A stretch of 42,140 nt of DNA from Thiotrichaceae bacterium (lineage in GTDB: Bacteria > Pseudomonadota > Gammaproteobacteria > Thiotrichales > Thiotrichaceae). The stretch covers positions 1 through 42,140 of the forward strand of contig JALXAX010000164.1 of the NCBI GenBank assembly GCA_026991755.1. Reading direction: 5' to 3'. Positions within the stretch are counted from its first letter, which is position 1, and each line of letters begins with the position of its first letter. The notes below the pieces were generated by a model. That model had not been told where the DNA came from and ran no database searches. It saw only the letters and a list, made by a program, of their open reading frames with translations. Below are positions 26,514 to 35,080 of this stretch, one piece after another. The position numbers and the translations under genes are program-made.

Positions 26514-27386
26514 ATGCTTTCCCCGCAAATCGACACATCATATTCAGTCGCCACACCAGAAGGTATTAGCCTTCATCTTACGCCTGCTGGGCCAGTGCCG
26601 CGTATTTATGCATGGGGTATTGACGTTCTCATTCGTTTGATCATCTATGCTTTTTTTGGGTTTTTTTCCAACCTATTGGGTAATTTTGGTGTTGGGATTT
26701 ATTCTATCGTTGTATTCTTTATCGAATGGTTTTACCCCGTCTACTTCGAAATTTTCCGTAATGGACAAACGCCTGGCAAGAAAATGTTTGAGATTTATGT
26801 TGCTCAAGAAAGTGGCGCACCTGTTTCTTTCGGCTCTTCTATGGTACGAAATATCATTCGTTTTATTGATTTTTTACCCATCCTCTACGGTTCTGCCTTT
26901 GTCTCCATGATATTGAGTGATAAATTTCAGCGCCTAGGCGATTTGGCTGCCAATACCGTCGTTTTATACCTTCCTACAGAGAACAGTCTTATTGTTGAAA
27001 ACAAAGAGCTGGATAAAGTCCCTTCGGAACATGCTCAAGTTTCTTTCTCACTTAAAGAGCAACAAGCCCTAATCAGCTTTTCAAACCGAATGGGGACTCT
27101 CAATGAAGATCGCTCTGATGAGCTAGCAAGCCTTACGGGTGATTTAGTTAAAGATCAATCACATCCTTCACGCTATCTATATGCGATAGCAAATGGTTTG
27201 ATGGGGAAACGTACTCATCGGGTGGAAAGAGAAACAAATTCTGCTAAGGAAGATAAACCTCAGACAGATTCCAATACTCAAACCGCAGCCCAAACAGATA
27301 CTCAACAAACCACAGCTGACTCAGAAAACAAACCAGCAATCACCTCAATGACAGATGAAAACCCAAACTCAGGGGATCAATCATGA
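26514..27386 (+). CDS. RDD-family membrane protein
   Basis: A 290-residue protein. Residues about 30-160 form an RDD domain: RIYAWGIDVLIRLIIY with the characteristic Arg/Asp, two or more membrane helices, then NGQTPGKKMFEIYV and DKFQRLGDLAANTVVLY, the second Asp motif. The C-terminal 110 residues are a polar, low-complexity Gln/Thr/Lys-rich tail. RDD proteins are proposed transporters, but that is uncertain. It is the first gene of a six-gene unit and overlaps the next start by 4 bp. Confidence 0.85.
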   Translation: MLSPQIDTSYSVATPEGISLHLTPAGPVPRIYAWGIDVLIRLIIYAFFGFFSNLLGNFGVGIYSIVVFFIEWFYPVYFEIFRNGQTPGKKMFEIYVAQESGAPVSFGSSMVRNIIRFIDFLPILYGSAFVSMILSDKFQRLGDLAANTVVLYLPTENSLIVENKELDKVPSEHAQVSFSLKEQQALISFSNRMGTLNEDRSDELASLTGDLVKDQSHPSRYLYAIANGLMGKRTHRVERETNSAKEDKPQTDSNTQTAAQTDTQQTTADSENKPAITSMTDENPNSGDQS

Positions 27387-28423
27387 GCAGCGTCAAACAA
27401 GAGCCTTTCGTCAATCGCTACGAATCTCAGTGGCAACATTTTGAAAACTGGATGGATTACCAAGAAAATACCTTACAGTGGCAAAAAAAGAACGGCCCTG
27501 ATGCTGAACCTCCCATACTGGATGATTTACCTCACCAGTATCGGCAGATTTGTCATCATCTAGCAATGGCTAAAACACGCATGTATAGCCCGTTATTAAT
27601 TGACCGATTAAATCGAATGGTCGTGCAAGGTCATCAGTACTTATACCAGACCAGCACTCACTTCATCCGCGACATTATCGACTACTTTACCATTACGTTT
27701 CCTGCCTTAATCCGTAAAGAACGCAAGCTAGTACTGATCGCAGCACTGCTCTTTTATGTACCCTTTTTTGGCATACTGATCTGGCTACAGTTTTACCCCG
27801 ATATGGTCTACTCCATTATGGATGGTGCTAGTGTACGCTCGATGGAAAATATGTATGACCCTGCTCTACATGAACGATTCGGTAGAGAAAGGGAAGCAGA
27901 TAGCGACGTGCTAATGTTTGGACACTATATTCGTAATAACACGGGTATTGATTTTAGAACCTTTGCCAGCGGACTATTGTTTGGTGTTGGCACACTTTTT
28001 TTTACAGTTTTCAATGGTGTCTACATTGGCGCAGCCACAGGACACCTCACACAATTGGGTTATATCGACACCTTTTGGGGCTTCGTTTGCGGGCATAGCT
28101 CACTAGAACTCACCGCCTTGGTATTTTCTACCGTAGCAGGATTAAAACTCGGCATGGGGATTATCAAACCGGGTAGAAAATCGCGTATTCGTGCGTTGAT
28201 TGATAATGGCAAAGTCAGTATGAATATCATGTACGGTACAGCAACCATGACGATTATGGCAGCTTTCGTAGAAGCCTTTTGGTCGTCCATTGCCTGGATG
28301 CCATTAGGTATCAAATATGCAGTCGCCGCTGCCTTATGGTCTGCGGTTATCGCCTATTTTGTTTTTATGGGTCGAAACGCAAAACCCACTCAAACACTAG
28401 TGGAACTCAGTCGTGCAACTTGA
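27383..28423 (+). CDS. SpoIIM-like (DUF95) integral membrane protein
   Basis: A 346-residue protein: a soluble N-terminal helical part (about 1-110), then several membrane helices (about 113-135, 190-215, 235-255, 280-300 and 310-335), with the family's RNNTGIDFRTFASGLLFGVGTLFFTVFNGVYIGA and CGHSSLELTALVFS segments. In spore formers SpoIIM is part of the engulfment machinery; this non-spore-former version has no known function. It overlaps both neighbours (4 bp upstream and 11 bp downstream), implying coordinated synthesis of the complex. Confidence 0.85.
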   Translation: MSSVKQEPFVNRYESQWQHFENWMDYQENTLQWQKKNGPDAEPPILDDLPHQYRQICHHLAMAKTRMYSPLLIDRLNRMVVQGHQYLYQTSTHFIRDIIDYFTITFPALIRKERKLVLIAALLFYVPFFGILIWLQFYPDMVYSIMDGASVRSMENMYDPALHERFGREREADSDVLMFGHYIRNNTGIDFRTFASGLLFGVGTLFFTVFNGVYIGAATGHLTQLGYIDTFWGFVCGHSSLELTALVFSTVAGLKLGMGIIKPGRKSRIRALIDNGKVSMNIMYGTATMTIMAAFVEAFWSSIAWMPLGIKYAVAAALWSAVIAYFVFMGRNAKPTQTLVELSRAT

Positions 28424-30065
28424 CCAAATAACGGCAAACATCCGCATGAGAAATCCTTGGGAAGCCATGGATTTAGGCTTTGCCCTAGTGCGTCATTCGT
28501 GGCAAGCCATCTATCTTCCATGGTTGATGTTTCTAACGACCTGTTCAGTGATCTGCTATATGCTAATGCCCGAAGACTATAAGCAATATGCTATTTTTGC
28601 TGTCTGGTGGTTCAAACCCTTATACGACAGATTCTTATTAAATATCCTTAGTCATAAGCTCTTTAACGATAATCTATCAACCACCCAAGCGCTTAAAGCC
28701 ACACCTCGACTTATCAAGTCTACGGGGCTATTCGGTGGGCTTACCTTCCGTCGTCCCTCTTTCTCGCGTGGTTTTAATTTACCGATTTGGCAACTGGAAC
28801 AACTAAGAGGGAAAGCACGTTCTTCCCGACAATCTATTTTACTAAGAAATGCACATTCGCATGCCGTTGGTTTAACCCTTGGTATGATTTTTATTGAATT
28901 AACGCTTTATTTTTCACTCTACGCACTGATCATTTTATTCTTGCCTGAGACCTTTCAAGGTTCCGCATTTGGGATTTTCTTTGGCGATGATCTCAGTGAA
29001 GGAGCGGCAACATGGCTACATATATTAGACCAGGTGATCTATACGCTAGCACTATTTTTAATTGAGCCTTTCTATGTAGCCGCGAGCTTTACCCTTTATA
29101 TAAACCGCCGAACACAATTAGAAGCGTGGGATATTGAGTTGGTCTTCCGACAAATAGCCAAACGCTTAAAAAACACAGGGCGTAAATTATTAAGTCTAAT
29201 TGCATTATCACTTATTGTTTTCACTATGGTGGCAATTGGTGCACCTGATACAGTTTATGCCGAAAGCAAACCTATAAGCAAACCTGTAAAAAATGCCGCT
29301 AATGTTTCCGAAGGGCAAGTTAATGTACAAGATGATAAGGCACAAGATAAAGTACAAGAAGAACACCTAGCAGATCATAGACTACCCGCTGATCAATCAG
29401 CATCAGTCATCGCCACTATTATACAACGTAAAGAGCTATCCAATGAAAAGCTCAATACTCGCTGGGTAAAAATCAAAAAAGATAAAAAGAAGAAAAAAAA
29501 GAAAGACTCTCTTTGGGATCTCGATTGGTTTTTCGATCCCATTACGGCAATCGTATCCATTCTGTTTGAATCCGTACTTTGGATAGCACTAGTAGTGGCG
29601 GCTATCTTTCTGTTTATCACCCGAAAAAGCTGGCTACCTTTACTCAATAGGGCACAACAGGATGATTCTGATTATCAAGCACCTGAAGTCATGTTCGGTA
29701 TGGATATTCGCCCCAAATCACTGCCTGACAACATCCCTGAAGCCGCCAGAAAACTGTGGCAAGCCCACAAACATCGTGATGCACTCAGCTTATTATACCG
29801 AGGCGCGCTCACCCAACTGGTCACCAAAGACCAGCTTGCTCTAAAAGCTAGTCAAACTGAGGGCGATATTCTTAAACTGGCTAAAACATCTCTTGGAACA
29901 ACTCAACACGCTTATCTCAACAGCCTAACCGAGCAATGGAAGCAAATTGCTTATGCCCATCACATCCCTGAAGAACAACGTGTAACCGTATTGTTTGATC
30001 GTTGGAATGCCGATTTTACACAAGCAGATCTAACAAGTAGCAAACAGTCTGGGAGTGCCTCATGA
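28413..30065 (+). CDS. DUF4129-containing multi-pass membrane protein
   Basis: A 550-residue protein. There are membrane helices at about 28-50, 152-177, 205-228 and 258-276, then a roughly 100-residue non-membrane loop (280-376), a helix at 377-402, and a C-terminal DUF4129 domain (about 430-530; ARKLWQAHKHRDALSLLYRGALTQLV). The loop ends in KKDKKKKKKKD, a run of lysines just before the helix. Translation appears to start at GTG 28413, inside the previous gene; an ATG at 28446 is an alternative. The stop overlaps the next start by 4 bp. The function is unknown. Confidence 0.8.
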   Translation: MQLDQITANIRMRNPWEAMDLGFALVRHSWQAIYLPWLMFLTTCSVICYMLMPEDYKQYAIFAVWWFKPLYDRFLLNILSHKLFNDNLSTTQALKATPRLIKSTGLFGGLTFRRPSFSRGFNLPIWQLEQLRGKARSSRQSILLRNAHSHAVGLTLGMIFIELTLYFSLYALIILFLPETFQGSAFGIFFGDDLSEGAATWLHILDQVIYTLALFLIEPFYVAASFTLYINRRTQLEAWDIELVFRQIAKRLKNTGRKLLSLIALSLIVFTMVAIGAPDTVYAESKPISKPVKNAANVSEGQVNVQDDKAQDKVQEEHLADHRLPADQSASVIATIIQRKELSNEKLNTRWVKIKKDKKKKKKKDSLWDLDWFFDPITAIVSILFESVLWIALVVAAIFLFITRKSWLPLLNRAQQDDSDYQAPEVMFGMDIRPKSLPDNIPEAARKLWQAHKHRDALSLLYRGALTQLVTKDQLALKASQTEGDILKLAKTSLGTTQHAYLNSLTEQWKQIAYAHHIPEEQRVTVLFDRWNADFTQADLTSSKQSGSAS

Positions 30066-31570
30066 ATAAACCCGCACTAGCTGTTGTTGCTCTCTTCTCT
30101 GTAGTATTCGCTTATAGCGTTTATGACTTTTTTATGACCCACGAGCGTAAAGAAATCACTGAATACACACCCTTTAAAGGTGAGGCCAGAGAGAACCCTT
30201 TGTTTGCGGCACGTTTATTCCTAAAAGAAATGGGAATACCCGCTGAAAATAAAAATGACTTACAAAGCATCGGAGAAAACTACCCAGATACTAATAGCGT
30301 CATTATTCTTGATACGCGTCGTACCACACTATCTCAAAAGCGTACCGAACTGTTATTAGCATGGGTACGTGAAGGGGGGCATTTAATCACCCCAAGTAGC
30401 GATAATTGGACTATTAAGACCTATTTGGATAGCCTCAATAATGATAGTGATGATGATAACGAAGATAAAGACGACGATAATAATGAGGATCATCAAAGTG
30501 AGGATCATCAAGAGAATATCTTGGAAGAATTTATTGAAGATGAGTGCCCAGAGGACGATGATGAGTGCCTCATGGGTGAAGCTTTTGACTATCAAACCTC
30601 AGATCACCTACAAAAAATACTGGAAGTCACAACAGGTCGCTCAGTCTATATAGCATCAAAAGAAGAAGATAAAGCTTCCAACGCTAATGAAGGCGACAAG
30701 AGCAACAAAAAAGATAAGAAGAAAGAAAAAGAAACATCTGATAATACAAAAGATTTAGAAAAACCCGAAGACTCAGAAAACAAAACCGAATACGAGTTCA
30801 GTGATAACAAGGAGGATATCGACTACGACGTATTATCCTTCTGGAATACTAAAGACACCCGTGTCTTCCCTGTCGCGCTATCTAACGCATCCAAGAAGCT
30901 CAACTTATCTATCAACCCGCATTTTTACTCCATGCGAAGTAAAGAAACGAACGAATCACACATCTTAATTGATGACGAGATCTTTCTGTTACAACGCGCA
31001 GTAGGCAAAGGCATGGTCACTCTAACCGCGGATATTGCTATTCTTGAAAACCAGCTATTAAGAGAAACCGACAATGCAGAATTTCTCTGGTATCTGGTAC
31101 ACAGCAATCACCAAAAACCTAATTCCGTTTGGCTATTCCATAATGATGAAATGCCAAGCCTATTTAGCCTCATGTGGCGACATGGATGGGCAGTGATTTT
31201 GTCACTAATCGCATTACTGCTTTTCTGGCTGTATCAATCCATACATCGCTTTGGCCCTCTTATACCCAAGCAAGAAATGGCTCGCCGCCGCTTAATGGAA
31301 CATATAGAAGCTAGCGGTCAATACTTCTGGAAGAAGAAAAATAAACAAACACTTATAGATAGCACACGACTCGCTCTAAACCAACGAATCGCGCGATTAC
31401 ACCCCGCTTGGGACAATACCGATGAACAAGGCAAAGTAGATCATCTTGCTGAAATGCTAGAGCTACCTCACAAGCATATTAAACATCTACTGTTTGATAA
31501 CCGTATAAATACCGATGAGGATTTTACTAAACTCATTATCGAATTAGAAAAGATTCGAAAGCATCTTTAG
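30062..31570 (+). CDS. DUF4350-domain membrane protein with acidic insert
   Basis: A 502-residue protein: N-terminal membrane helix (about 5-23), a DUF4350/GATase-like domain (about 35-350; TNSVIILDTRRTTL...LLLAWVREGGHLITPS), a second membrane helix (about 374-391), and a soluble C-terminal region. Two charged low-complexity inserts break the domain: an Asp/Glu-rich tract at 126-171 and a mixed Lys/Glu tract at 199-256. I recall typical members being about 100 residues shorter. Both tracts fall between the two helices, so they are predicted to be periplasmic. It is the fourth gene of the coupled cluster. Confidence 0.8.
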   Translation: MNKPALAVVALFSVVFAYSVYDFFMTHERKEITEYTPFKGEARENPLFAARLFLKEMGIPAENKNDLQSIGENYPDTNSVIILDTRRTTLSQKRTELLLAWVREGGHLITPSSDNWTIKTYLDSLNNDSDDDNEDKDDDNNEDHQSEDHQENILEEFIEDECPEDDDECLMGEAFDYQTSDHLQKILEVTTGRSVYIASKEEDKASNANEGDKSNKKDKKKEKETSDNTKDLEKPEDSENKTEYEFSDNKEDIDYDVLSFWNTKDTRVFPVALSNASKKLNLSINPHFYSMRSKETNESHILIDDEIFLLQRAVGKGMVTLTADIAILENQLLRETDNAEFLWYLVHSNHQKPNSVWLFHNDEMPSLFSLMWRHGWAVILSLIALLLFWLYQSIHRFGPLIPKQEMARRRLMEHIEASGQYFWKKKNKQTLIDSTRLALNQRIARLHPAWDNTDEQGKVDHLAEMLELPHKHIKHLLFDNRINTDEDFTKLIIELEKIRKHL

Positions 31571-31587
31571 ATAGATTAAAAATCTAT
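31571..31587 (+). terminator. Weak hairpin after the DUF4350 gene
   Basis: ATAGATT and AATCTAT form a perfect 7-bp AT-rich stem around a 3-base loop immediately after the stop codon. There is no T-run, so it may be only a weak attenuator or mRNA end. Confidence 0.3.
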
Positions 31588-31599
31588 AAATTATAGATG

Positions 31600-31668
31600 T
31601 GTAGGCGATAGCATCGCATCAAAGGACTGTGCTGTATCTGATGCGCACGTTCCTTAGCACATCCTACA
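31600..31668. repeat. GTAGG...CCTAC palindromic repeat, family B, copy 2
   Basis: TGTAGGCGATAGCATCGCATCA pairs imperfectly with a right arm whose complement reads TGTAGGATGTGCTAAGGAACG. The minus-strand arm matches the copy at 3082-3154 (TGTAGGTTGGTGCTGAGGC) at most positions. It separates the DUF4350 gene from the MoxR gene, the only large gap in the six-gene unit. Confidence 0.6.
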
Positions 31669-31784
31669 AACCAGCTGTAGTTAATGCTGAATAACAAAAC
31701 AATGGAAAAAGTTTTGTGACAATTAGTAGTATAAGAAAAATTAGCTTAGGCAGAAAAACAAAAGAATAAATATAGGACAAACTC

Positions 31785-32753
31785 ATGACAGAAATGACAC
31801 TCGAACAAGCTAGCCAACTAGTCAACCAGATCAAAGCAGAGATTGGTAAAGCAGTAATAGGCCAGCAGCAAGTCATCCACGAAACACTGGTTGCGCTACT
31901 AGCAGGTGGCAATGTGCTCATCGAGGGCGTACCTGGGTTAGGAAAAACATTACTGGTTAAATCCTTGGCTCAGACTTTTTCGGGTCAATTTTCGCGCATT
32001 CAATTCACCCCCGACCTGATGCCAGCAGACATCACAGGTCACTTTATGTTTAATACAAAAACACAAGAGTTTACCGTCCGAAAAGGCCCCGTGTTTACCA
32101 ATATTTTATTGGCAGATGAGATCAACCGAGCACCTGCCAAAACACAGGCCGCTTTACTAGAAGTGATGCAAGAGCACCAAGTCACTATTGAGGGCGAGAC
32201 CTTTAAAGTACCGCTACCCTTTATGACGCTAGCTACCCAAAACCCACTAGAACAAGAAGGCACCTATGCCTTACCCGAAGCCCAACTAGACCGTTTTTTA
32301 TTAAAAGTATTTATCAACTACCCTGAACACAATGAAGAATCAGATATGGTTACCGCGGTCACCACAGGACTAGTAGGCGATAAATTGGAAATATCACAAG
32401 TCGGCAGTGTGCTCACTCCCGATAGTTTGCAACTCATACAACAACTCACTACCGATATCGAAGTAGACCCGACTGTTATTGACTATGCGGTTCGCATTGT
32501 TCGTGCTACCAGAGAATGGCAAGGGCTGAGCATTGGCGCGGGGCCTCGTGGCAGTATTTCATTAATCCGTTTAGCGCGAGCCCAAGCACTTATCAATAGC
32601 CGCGACCACGTAACACCTGACGATATTAAAGAAATAGCACTCCCTTGTTTGCGTCACCGCGTAGCGCTATCACCAGAAATGGAATTGGAATCTCACACCA
32701 CTGACGATATTTTATTATCTATTCTCGACAAAATTGAAGCACCTCGACAGTAA
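31785..32753 (+). CDS. MoxR-family AAA+ ATPase
   Basis: A 322-residue MoxR ATPase. Walker A is GVPGLGKTLL, Walker B is ILLADEINRAPAKTQAALLEVMQE, sensor 1 is LATQNPLEQEGTYALPEAQLDRFLL, and the C-terminal lid carries GPRGSISLIRLARAQALI, all standard for the family. MoxR ATPases act as chaperones or maturation factors for partner VWA/DUF58 and membrane proteins. A good AGGAC precedes the start. A 214-bp gap with a palindromic repeat separates it from the upstream membrane genes; DUF58 follows at 24 bp. Confidence 0.93.
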   Translation: MTEMTLEQASQLVNQIKAEIGKAVIGQQQVIHETLVALLAGGNVLIEGVPGLGKTLLVKSLAQTFSGQFSRIQFTPDLMPADITGHFMFNTKTQEFTVRKGPVFTNILLADEINRAPAKTQAALLEVMQEHQVTIEGETFKVPLPFMTLATQNPLEQEGTYALPEAQLDRFLLKVFINYPEHNEESDMVTAVTTGLVGDKLEISQVGSVLTPDSLQLIQQLTTDIEVDPTVIDYAVRIVRATREWQGLSIGAGPRGSISLIRLARAQALINSRDHVTPDDIKEIALPCLRHRVALSPEMELESHTTDDILLSILDKIEAPRQ

Positions 32754-32777
32754 GACATAGGCGAATTAATCACACAT

Positions 32778-34127
32778 ATGTTCATTCCAACCCACCGTCT
32801 TTTATTACTGATTATGGCTATCGCCATGCTGGGCTTAATCAGTAGCTTCTGGCCTGCGATGCTCATTGTCTGGCAAATCAGCATTGTGCTAGCTGTGGCT
32901 ATTGCCGTTATAGATGGCAGTTTGTTATTGCTGAACAAACCCGTCACCGCGACTCGACAACTACAAGGCTCGATACCGTTGGGGGTAAAACGCGATGTGA
33001 AAATCACACTAACCAATACCGATAGCAAAACACAGACTATCGACATATTCGATCACTTTCCGCTTCAAGTAGAAGCGGTGGGTATGCCGATTACCACCTC
33101 CATTTCTGGCAGTGACAACAATGATAACGGCAACAACACAGCAACCGTAAGCTATTCCATTACCGCCAAAGAACGCGGCAAGATTGTCTTCCCTGCCCTA
33201 CAAATTCGTATCCTTTCGAAACTAGAACTCTGGAAACGCAATCAATATTTAGATGTTTATAATGAGACACGGGTCTACCCCAACTTTGCCGCAGTAGCCC
33301 ATATGGCTTTACTAGCGACGGACAACCGCCTCAGCCAATTAGGCATCATGAAAAAACGTCGTCGAGGTGAAGGGCAGGACTTTCATCAATTACGTGAATA
33401 CCGTGATGGCGATAGCCTAAGACAAATTGATTGGAAAGCTACTTCCAGAACCCGCAAACTCATCTCTCGCGAGTATCAAGACGAGCGCGATCAAGAAGTG
33501 ATATTCCTGCTAGATTGTGGTCAACGTATGACTACCAAAGACGATGAGCTATCCCACTTTGATCACACCCTAAACGCCATGTTGCTACTCAGCTATGTAG
33601 CACTAAAACAAGGTGACTCTGTTGGCCTCGCCACCTTCAGTGGACAAAATGGAGAGAAAAGCGGAGAAGCCCGTTGGCTGTCACCCAAGAAAGGCAATCA
33701 CACCATTCAGCACATACTGAATACGCTGTACGACTTGCAACCCTCTGATCAATCGCCTGATTACACACAAGCAGCAACAGACCTATTAATCCGACATAAA
33801 AAGCGTGCTTTAGTCATTGTACTCACTAATATCAGAGATGAGGACAGTGAAGATTTATCACCCGCACTCAAAATATTAAGCAAAAGACATCTCGTGTTAT
33901 TAGCCAGCCTTCGTGAAGAAGCACTGGATAAGGCTTTACAGAAAAAAATACAAGATCTACCTGATGCCATTCGCATTGCAGCTTTGCATCGCTATTTGCA
34001 ACAACGTCAATCGACGTTTAAAGCGTTACAAAATAATAAAGTGCTTAATGTGGATGTATCACCGAATAACTTAACGATTGAACTGATTAACTCCTATCTT
34101 AATATTAAGCGTAGTGGTTTGTTGTAA
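32778..34127 (+). CDS. DUF58 protein with degenerate VWA-like domain
   Basis: A 449-residue protein with two N-terminal membrane helices (about 6-25 and 30-52), a β-sandwich region (about 60-160), the DUF58 signature GEGQDFHQLREYRDGDSLRQIDWKATSRTRKLISREY (about 195-231), and a von Willebrand A-like fold (about 238-400) whose metal-site motif is degenerate: FLLDCGQRM instead of DxSxS. DUF58 proteins are encoded beside MoxR ATPases and are their presumed partners. The mechanism is not established. Confidence 0.88.
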   Translation: MFIPTHRLLLLIMAIAMLGLISSFWPAMLIVWQISIVLAVAIAVIDGSLLLLNKPVTATRQLQGSIPLGVKRDVKITLTNTDSKTQTIDIFDHFPLQVEAVGMPITTSISGSDNNDNGNNTATVSYSITAKERGKIVFPALQIRILSKLELWKRNQYLDVYNETRVYPNFAAVAHMALLATDNRLSQLGIMKKRRRGEGQDFHQLREYRDGDSLRQIDWKATSRTRKLISREYQDERDQEVIFLLDCGQRMTTKDDELSHFDHTLNAMLLLSYVALKQGDSVGLATFSGQNGEKSGEARWLSPKKGNHTIQHILNTLYDLQPSDQSPDYTQAATDLLIRHKKRALVIVLTNIRDEDSEDLSPALKILSKRHLVLLASLREEALDKALQKKIQDLPDAIRIAALHRYLQQRQSTFKALQNNKVLNVDVSPNNLTIELINSYLNIKRSGLL

Positions 34128-34411: not shown

Positions 34412-35080
34412 CTATCTATCTTTAATCTTAAATTGATCTCCACTTTTAGGCCCTTCCATTTCTTTAGTTGGGTCACTTTTTGACGGTGATTGGTCATCCT
34501 TTTTATCTTTCGACATTGCATCGTTGCCCATTGTCGACTTCATAGGTTTAGCTTCTTTTTCGGTAGTCACAGCATCAAGAGCCATAGCACCCTCTTGAGC
34601 AGGCTTTGTGGCATTTTCAGACTTTTTAGATGAAGATGTTTCACTACTATCACTCTTATTATTTCTTTCTATAGTACCTCTCATGCTTGTTGAGCTAGGT
34701 GCAGGTTTACAGTTGCACTCACAGTATCCGCGACGTACTGATTTAGGGACTTCGGGTCTACGTACTTTCTGCTTCTGCTCTTTTTCTGTCGCAGCCTTCT
34801 TTTCTTTACTCTTGTTGCGCTTAGCTTTTGTAGACACAAGATCTGATGCCAGTGGTTTGCCACAGTTCACACAACCATCTGACCAGCCTTTCCACATACC
34901 AGGGTATTTCTTTATAACTTTGACGGCTTGTCCTGACATATTTAGGTCATTTGTTTCTTCGGTTCCGCTACTAGCGTAGCTGGGAGTCATACTTGCCATA
35001 GCTATTAAAGCTACTGAAACCAATACCCCAAGGTATGTAATCACCTTTGTACTGATCTTTTTAAAAAATAGTGTTTTCAT
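34412..35080 (-). CDS. Exported cysteine-motif protein of unknown function
   Basis: A 222-residue protein with a signal peptide (about residues 1-36, ending SYA). The mature part has two Cys clusters: GCVNC (about 70-74, in KGWSDGCVNCGKPLA) and YCECNC (about 118-123). The rest is highly charged, disordered Lys/Ser/Glu sequence. The clusters could bind metal or form disulfides. I do not recognise the family, and no neighbour on this strand suggests a role. The start at 35080 lacks a strong ribosome-binding site but gives a typical basic n-region. Confidence 0.65.
   Translation of the reverse strand: MKTLFFKKISTKVITYLGVLVSVALIAMASMTPSYASSGTEETNDLNMSGQAVKVIKKYPGMWKGWSDGCVNCGKPLASDLVSTKAKRNKSKEKKAATEKEQKQKVRRPEVPKSVRRGYCECNCKPAPSSTSMRGTIERNNKSDSSETSSSKKSENATKPAQEGAMALDAVTTEKEAKPMKSTMGNDAMSKDKKDDQSPSKSDPTKEMEGPKSGDQFKIKDR

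Follow-up and report, generated by a model that had tools for sequence, protein, structure and literature searches.

We found that a DUF4129-type membrane protein, encoded in a 42,140-nucleotide stretch of DNA from a Thiotrichaceae bacterium (hereafter the window), carries an internal signal-peptide-like region. From sequence comparison, we give a probability of roughly 0.6 to the reading that this protein is a two-product precursor, which signal peptidase I would cut at A283/E284 into a polytopic N-terminal product and a bitopic C-terminal product whose new periplasmic N-terminal part bears a lysine hinge. We regard the putative internal signal peptide as a more interesting feature than the charged tracts of this protein and its DUF4350 neighbor, the subject of the original prediction.

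The gene order at positions 26514-34127, from the open reading frame (ORF) list and Pfam, is RDD, SpoIIM-like, DUF4129-type, DUF4350, MoxR AAA+ ATPase and DUF58 (AAA_3, 212 bits; SpoIIM, 107.2 bits; DUF58, 103 bits; RDD, 70.3 bits), and with a MoxR AAA+ ATPase and a vWA/DUF58 protein in the neighborhood the locus has the make-up of a MoxR membrane module. The DUF4350 protein (502 residues; 30062-31570, plus strand) belongs to Pfam PF14258, scoring 48 bits against a curated cut-off of 30.4. The protein upstream (550 residues, GTG start; 28413-30065, plus strand) has a full-length match to PF13559 at residues 461-531 (29793-30005, plus strand; profile positions 1-68 of 69; E = 0.0016) that scored 18.9 bits, below the curated 24.8, and for this reason we refer to it only as DUF4129-type. 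An alignment of its N-terminal half gave no usable Pfam match (1/8 members, E = 0.11), and nothing useful was found in NCBIfam. The two genes share four bases (30062-30065), which bears out the overlap originally predicted.

Relatives of the DUF4129-type protein were found in 51 of 63 family genomes and relatives of the DUF4350 protein in 49; both genes were present in 49 genomes, a DUF4129-type match alone in two (G030 and G073) and neither gene in 12. Neither protein had a match in four genomes that are 93-99% complete (G003, G004, G059 and G060), including two from the genus of the window, and the pair seems to have been lost together there. A scan of genome contigs returned one relative, L090, from the same genus as the window. 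We also observed a second DUF4350-like match in the window's genome (L002; G000:C153:23353-24030), which at 25.9 bits lies under the Pfam cut-off. On the minus strand of the window, at 34412-35080, a 222-residue ORF opens like a signal peptide and contains a stretch with Cys as well as long low-complexity parts rich in Lys, Glu and Ser.

The signal-peptide-like region of the DUF4129-type protein spans residues 247-283 (29151-29261, plus strand); in its helix, which precedes the lysine hinge, a basic n-region is followed by a variable h-region and by a c-region bearing A-x-A. The site motif is conserved, and this organization, in which, as in signal peptidase I substrates, position -3 is small or aliphatic and position -1 is Ala, puts the predicted cut at A283/E284 (VYA/ES). 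Pairwise identity was 0.24 in the h-region, compared with 0.34 to 0.52 in the other transmembrane segments. After the helix, the motif [AVSL]xA[ADESQN] was found in 59 of 66 fused proteins (family set with two outgroups included, 40/45; class loci, 19/21), compared with 22 of 213 among the remaining hydrophobic helices of those proteins; in all such counts the sequences are related, so the trials are not independent. Of the seven misses, six retain the -1 Ala and carry A, V, T or G at -3, and in the seventh, G007, position -3 is Asn. The 66 exclude L116 (no anchor) and G068 (a short piece). Further proteins from a search of the phylum, excluding L165 (no anchor) and four loci from genomes already counted, had the motif in 21/22 cases versus 5/57 control helices. 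With Pro also required, the counts were 55/66 versus 17/213, and in the further set only 10/22 versus 2/57. A lenient site motif was present in 46/46 proteins versus 37.8 expected by shuffling and, in a larger set, in 62/62 scored (5 of 67 were without an anchor) versus 101/222 control helices. Another site motif was present in 44/45 and 20/20 proteins versus 52/234, the sole miss (G034) being a wrongly picked helix. In the literature searched on DUF4350/DUF4129, on MoxR with DUF58, SpoIIM and RDD, on low-complexity tracts and on internal signal peptides and polyproteins, none of the titles and abstract openings concerned an internal signal peptide in this family.

The DUF4129-type protein consists of a polytopic N-terminal half fused to a C-terminal half with its own signal-peptide-like helix. 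This fused form accounted for 44 of 51 cases in the family (5 split; 2 not callable) and 42 of 53 in a sample of the class (8 split; 3 not callable), three of the 53 being family genomes. In G023, G033, G064, G065, G066 and G056 the gene is split at the signal-peptide-like region; at the DNA level, an ATG overlaps the stop of the N-half as ATGA in G023, G066 and G056, and candidate starts lie at +2 (G064), +3 (G065) and +8 (G033). The split C-halves begin with a signal-peptide-like N-terminus, and by eye 6/8 (G023, G065, G066, G056, L112 and L115) have Ala at -1 and a small or aliphatic residue at -3. The other two (G033 and G064; 2/8, also by eye) are without Ala at the expected site, and their helix might remain as an anchor. 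The missing site alanine in these two somewhat lowers the probability that we give to a two-product precursor. Read most economically, the fused product is probably, as a rule, cut into two proteins. FbcH-type polyproteins are cytochrome b/c1 precursors that are cut at an internal signal peptide. In the DUF4129-type protein, an internal signal peptide would likewise link a polytopic part to a bitopic one whose N-terminus is extracytoplasmic; unlike in FbcH, an unrelated protein, cleavage is read from conservation only and in some relatives each half has a gene of its own.

Both charged tracts of the original prediction were recovered. In the ORF translation of the DUF4129-type protein, residues 353-364 (29469-29504, plus strand) read KIKKD followed by seven lysines, within a hypervariable hinge before the last transmembrane helix (residues about 384-405; 29562-29627, plus strand; called from hydropathy and an inside-positive flank). 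Ahead of the run lies a conserved periplasmic segment (residues 322-351; 29376-29465, plus strand; mean pairwise identity 0.35) that ends at a near-invariant tryptophan, Trp351, present in 50 of the 52 aligned rows having a residue there; hinge residues 352-369 have a mean pairwise identity of 0.16, the lowest of 13 segments measured. The acidic insert of the DUF4350 protein (residues 126-171; 30437-30574, plus strand) sits inside the DUF4350 domain past the GGHLI motif, with Asp or Glu at 24 of 46 residues and a 13-nt direct repeat within the tract; the Pfam match breaks there at profile position 114 and restarts at 135. The insert also holds C162 and C169 (30545-30568), and L090 keeps C162-P163 and is without a Cys aligned to C169. 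A second insert (residues 199-257; 30656-30832, plus strand), also covered by the interval of the original prediction (29469-30831) though not mentioned there, is mixed Lys/Glu (13 Lys, net -8) and has a K-rich run, so the acidic DUF4350 protein bears a basic run of its own. A structure prediction for the DUF4350 protein from a two-row alignment (window and L090) was set aside (mean pLDDT 38.9; pTM 0.19).

The extremity of the tracts was ranked in a sample of 180 ORFs, none overlapping another and each at least 150 residues long. They come from 287,922 bases, made up of the window, which holds 32 of the ORFs, and 20 contig stretches of its genome. The DUF4129-type protein came first in Lys per 12 residues (10; next 9), and the DUF4350 protein came first in Asp/Glu per 46 residues (25; next 19). 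Seven consecutive Lys codons occur at two places in the genome; since the reversed control pattern gave three hits, this DNA is rare yet within chance on its own.

With the presence, extremity, hypervariability and independent variation of the tracts observed, we infer periplasmic placement, disorder, a spacer role and slippage: both tracts quite likely arose by lineage-specific expansion of hinges that evolve fast, are probably disordered and face the periplasm, serving chiefly as spacers, with neither depending on the other. The two hinges belong to two proteins of one conserved membrane module, that of the six genes named above. The position of the acidic hinge within the DUF4350 domain is fixed, and nearly all family members have it acidic; the lysine run would be a local expansion of the hinge between the conserved periplasmic segment and the last transmembrane helix. 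Growth of the tracts may have come partly by replication slippage, as is suggested by tandem arrays: 4 of 16 distinct low-score arrays of the window (lowest score accepted, 30) fall in variable periplasmic segments of both proteins. Hinge Lys count drops as GC rises (raw rho -0.38, p = 0.0085; contrasts r -0.30, p = 0.041), a trend that fits compositional drift. Against a purely spacer role, the charge of the acidic insert, net negative in 43/46 family genomes, may be under selection, and the spacer reading makes it a coincidence that neighboring genes encode the two most extreme proteins of the sample.

That same negative charge would suit a periplasmic binder, store or sensor of divalent cations, the binding function that the original prediction had offered for the acidic tract. 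This is improbable: canonical EF-hand loops have Gly at position 6, whereas residues 126-171 contain no Gly and with it no canonical EF-hand loop, and across the family the segment between fixed alignment columns ranges from 20 to 188 residues, with neither length nor composition conserved. Specific support for cation binding was not found.

Slightly less probable again is that the lysine run and the acidic insert form an electrostatic docking pair that joins the two proteins in the periplasm. Such contact, also part of the original prediction, would agree with the location of both tracts on the same predicted side, with adjacent, overlapping genes that co-occur (both in 49/63 family genomes, 2 with the DUF4129-type gene only, 12 with neither) and with the extremity of both tracts among the sampled ORFs. 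Co-variation was measured in 46 family genomes and 3 outgroups with both tracts measurable, after removal of G002 and G028, in which DUF4350 is broken across contigs (hinge net charges -5 and -4), and of G017, where the hinge is missing, and 45 contrasts were computed on a tree from conserved parts of the proteins. Hinge net charge did not track any of four insert measures, namely length, net charge, Asp/Glu count and best acidic window (46 genomes; raw rho -0.03 to 0.11; contrasts r -0.09 to 0.13; p at least 0.4 throughout). Peak K+R per 10 residues did correlate, with the window included, with insert length (raw rho 0.47; contrasts r 0.30, p = 0.043) and insert Asp/Glu count (raw rho 0.40; contrasts r 0.36, p = 0.013), which counts for docking and against the spacer reading. 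Without the window the contrasts were 0.03 (length) and 0.04 (Asp/Glu) and the raw values 0.43 and 0.36, and we read the persisting raw correlations as shared ancestry. The hinge was net zero or negative in 37/46 family genomes. G005, the sister of the window, keeps an acidic insert (net -29) without the Lys run (hinge net -3), and the reverse holds for G058 (Lys cluster with 7 K+R in 10; insert net -11) and G035 (6 K+R in 10; insert net +2); the Lys-rich run within the DUF4350 protein itself also argues against docking. In the orthologue alignment, then, the tracts do not appear and vanish together, and because they vary independently the contact reading is not supported; we set this attractive hypothesis aside.

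Returning to the spacer reading, both tracts are most likely periplasmic, in agreement with the original prediction, as suggested by the signal-peptide-like helix ahead of the Lys hinge and the inside-positive flanks of both transmembrane helices. At the last helix of the DUF4129-type protein, K+R among 20 inside residues equaled or exceeded the outside count in 42/43 orthologues; with wider flanks, net charge favored the inside in only 31/43. At the C-terminal helix of the DUF4350 protein, the inside was more positive in 48/49. The least probable alternative, a reversed last helix with a cytoplasmic lysine run and the tracts on opposite sides of the membrane, draws on the position of the run in the window, about 20 residues before that helix on its predicted outer side and contrary to the positive-inside trend, but is made very unlikely by the signal-peptide-like helix ahead of the hinge, the signal-peptide-like sequence with which the C-half begins in split versions of the gene, and the 42/43 orthologues above.

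In the available text of PMC5898192, DUF4350/arCOG01314 proteins are membrane-anchored, have a large extracellular domain tabulated as flavodoxin-like and are partnered by MoxR and vWA proteins, a role in secretion or membrane remodeling is proposed for DUF4350 proteins, and bacterial SpoIIM homologues adjoin vWA and AAA+ genes. Here too a membrane-anchored protein with an extracytoplasmic domain is found next to a MoxR ATPase. Unlike the arCOG01314 systems as that text presents them, the gammaproteobacterial module adds SpoIIM-like, RDD and DUF4129-type genes, and its DUF4350 domain holds a long acidic insert. Bacterial low-complexity regions, as portrayed in the accessible part of PMC8004648, are fast-evolving, skewed in composition and poorly conserved between homologues; both tracts share these traits, but here there are two, in adjacent genes and of opposite charge.

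Many families of the class share the arrangement of the DUF4129-type protein, as do two genomes from another class of the same phylum. If the two-product reading is true, what is annotated as one chain may be a pair of mature subunits, and topology models, the make-up of the complex and the modeling of the module would change accordingly. This gives the uncharacterized MoxR/SpoIIM/DUF4129/DUF4350 module a concrete, testable feature.
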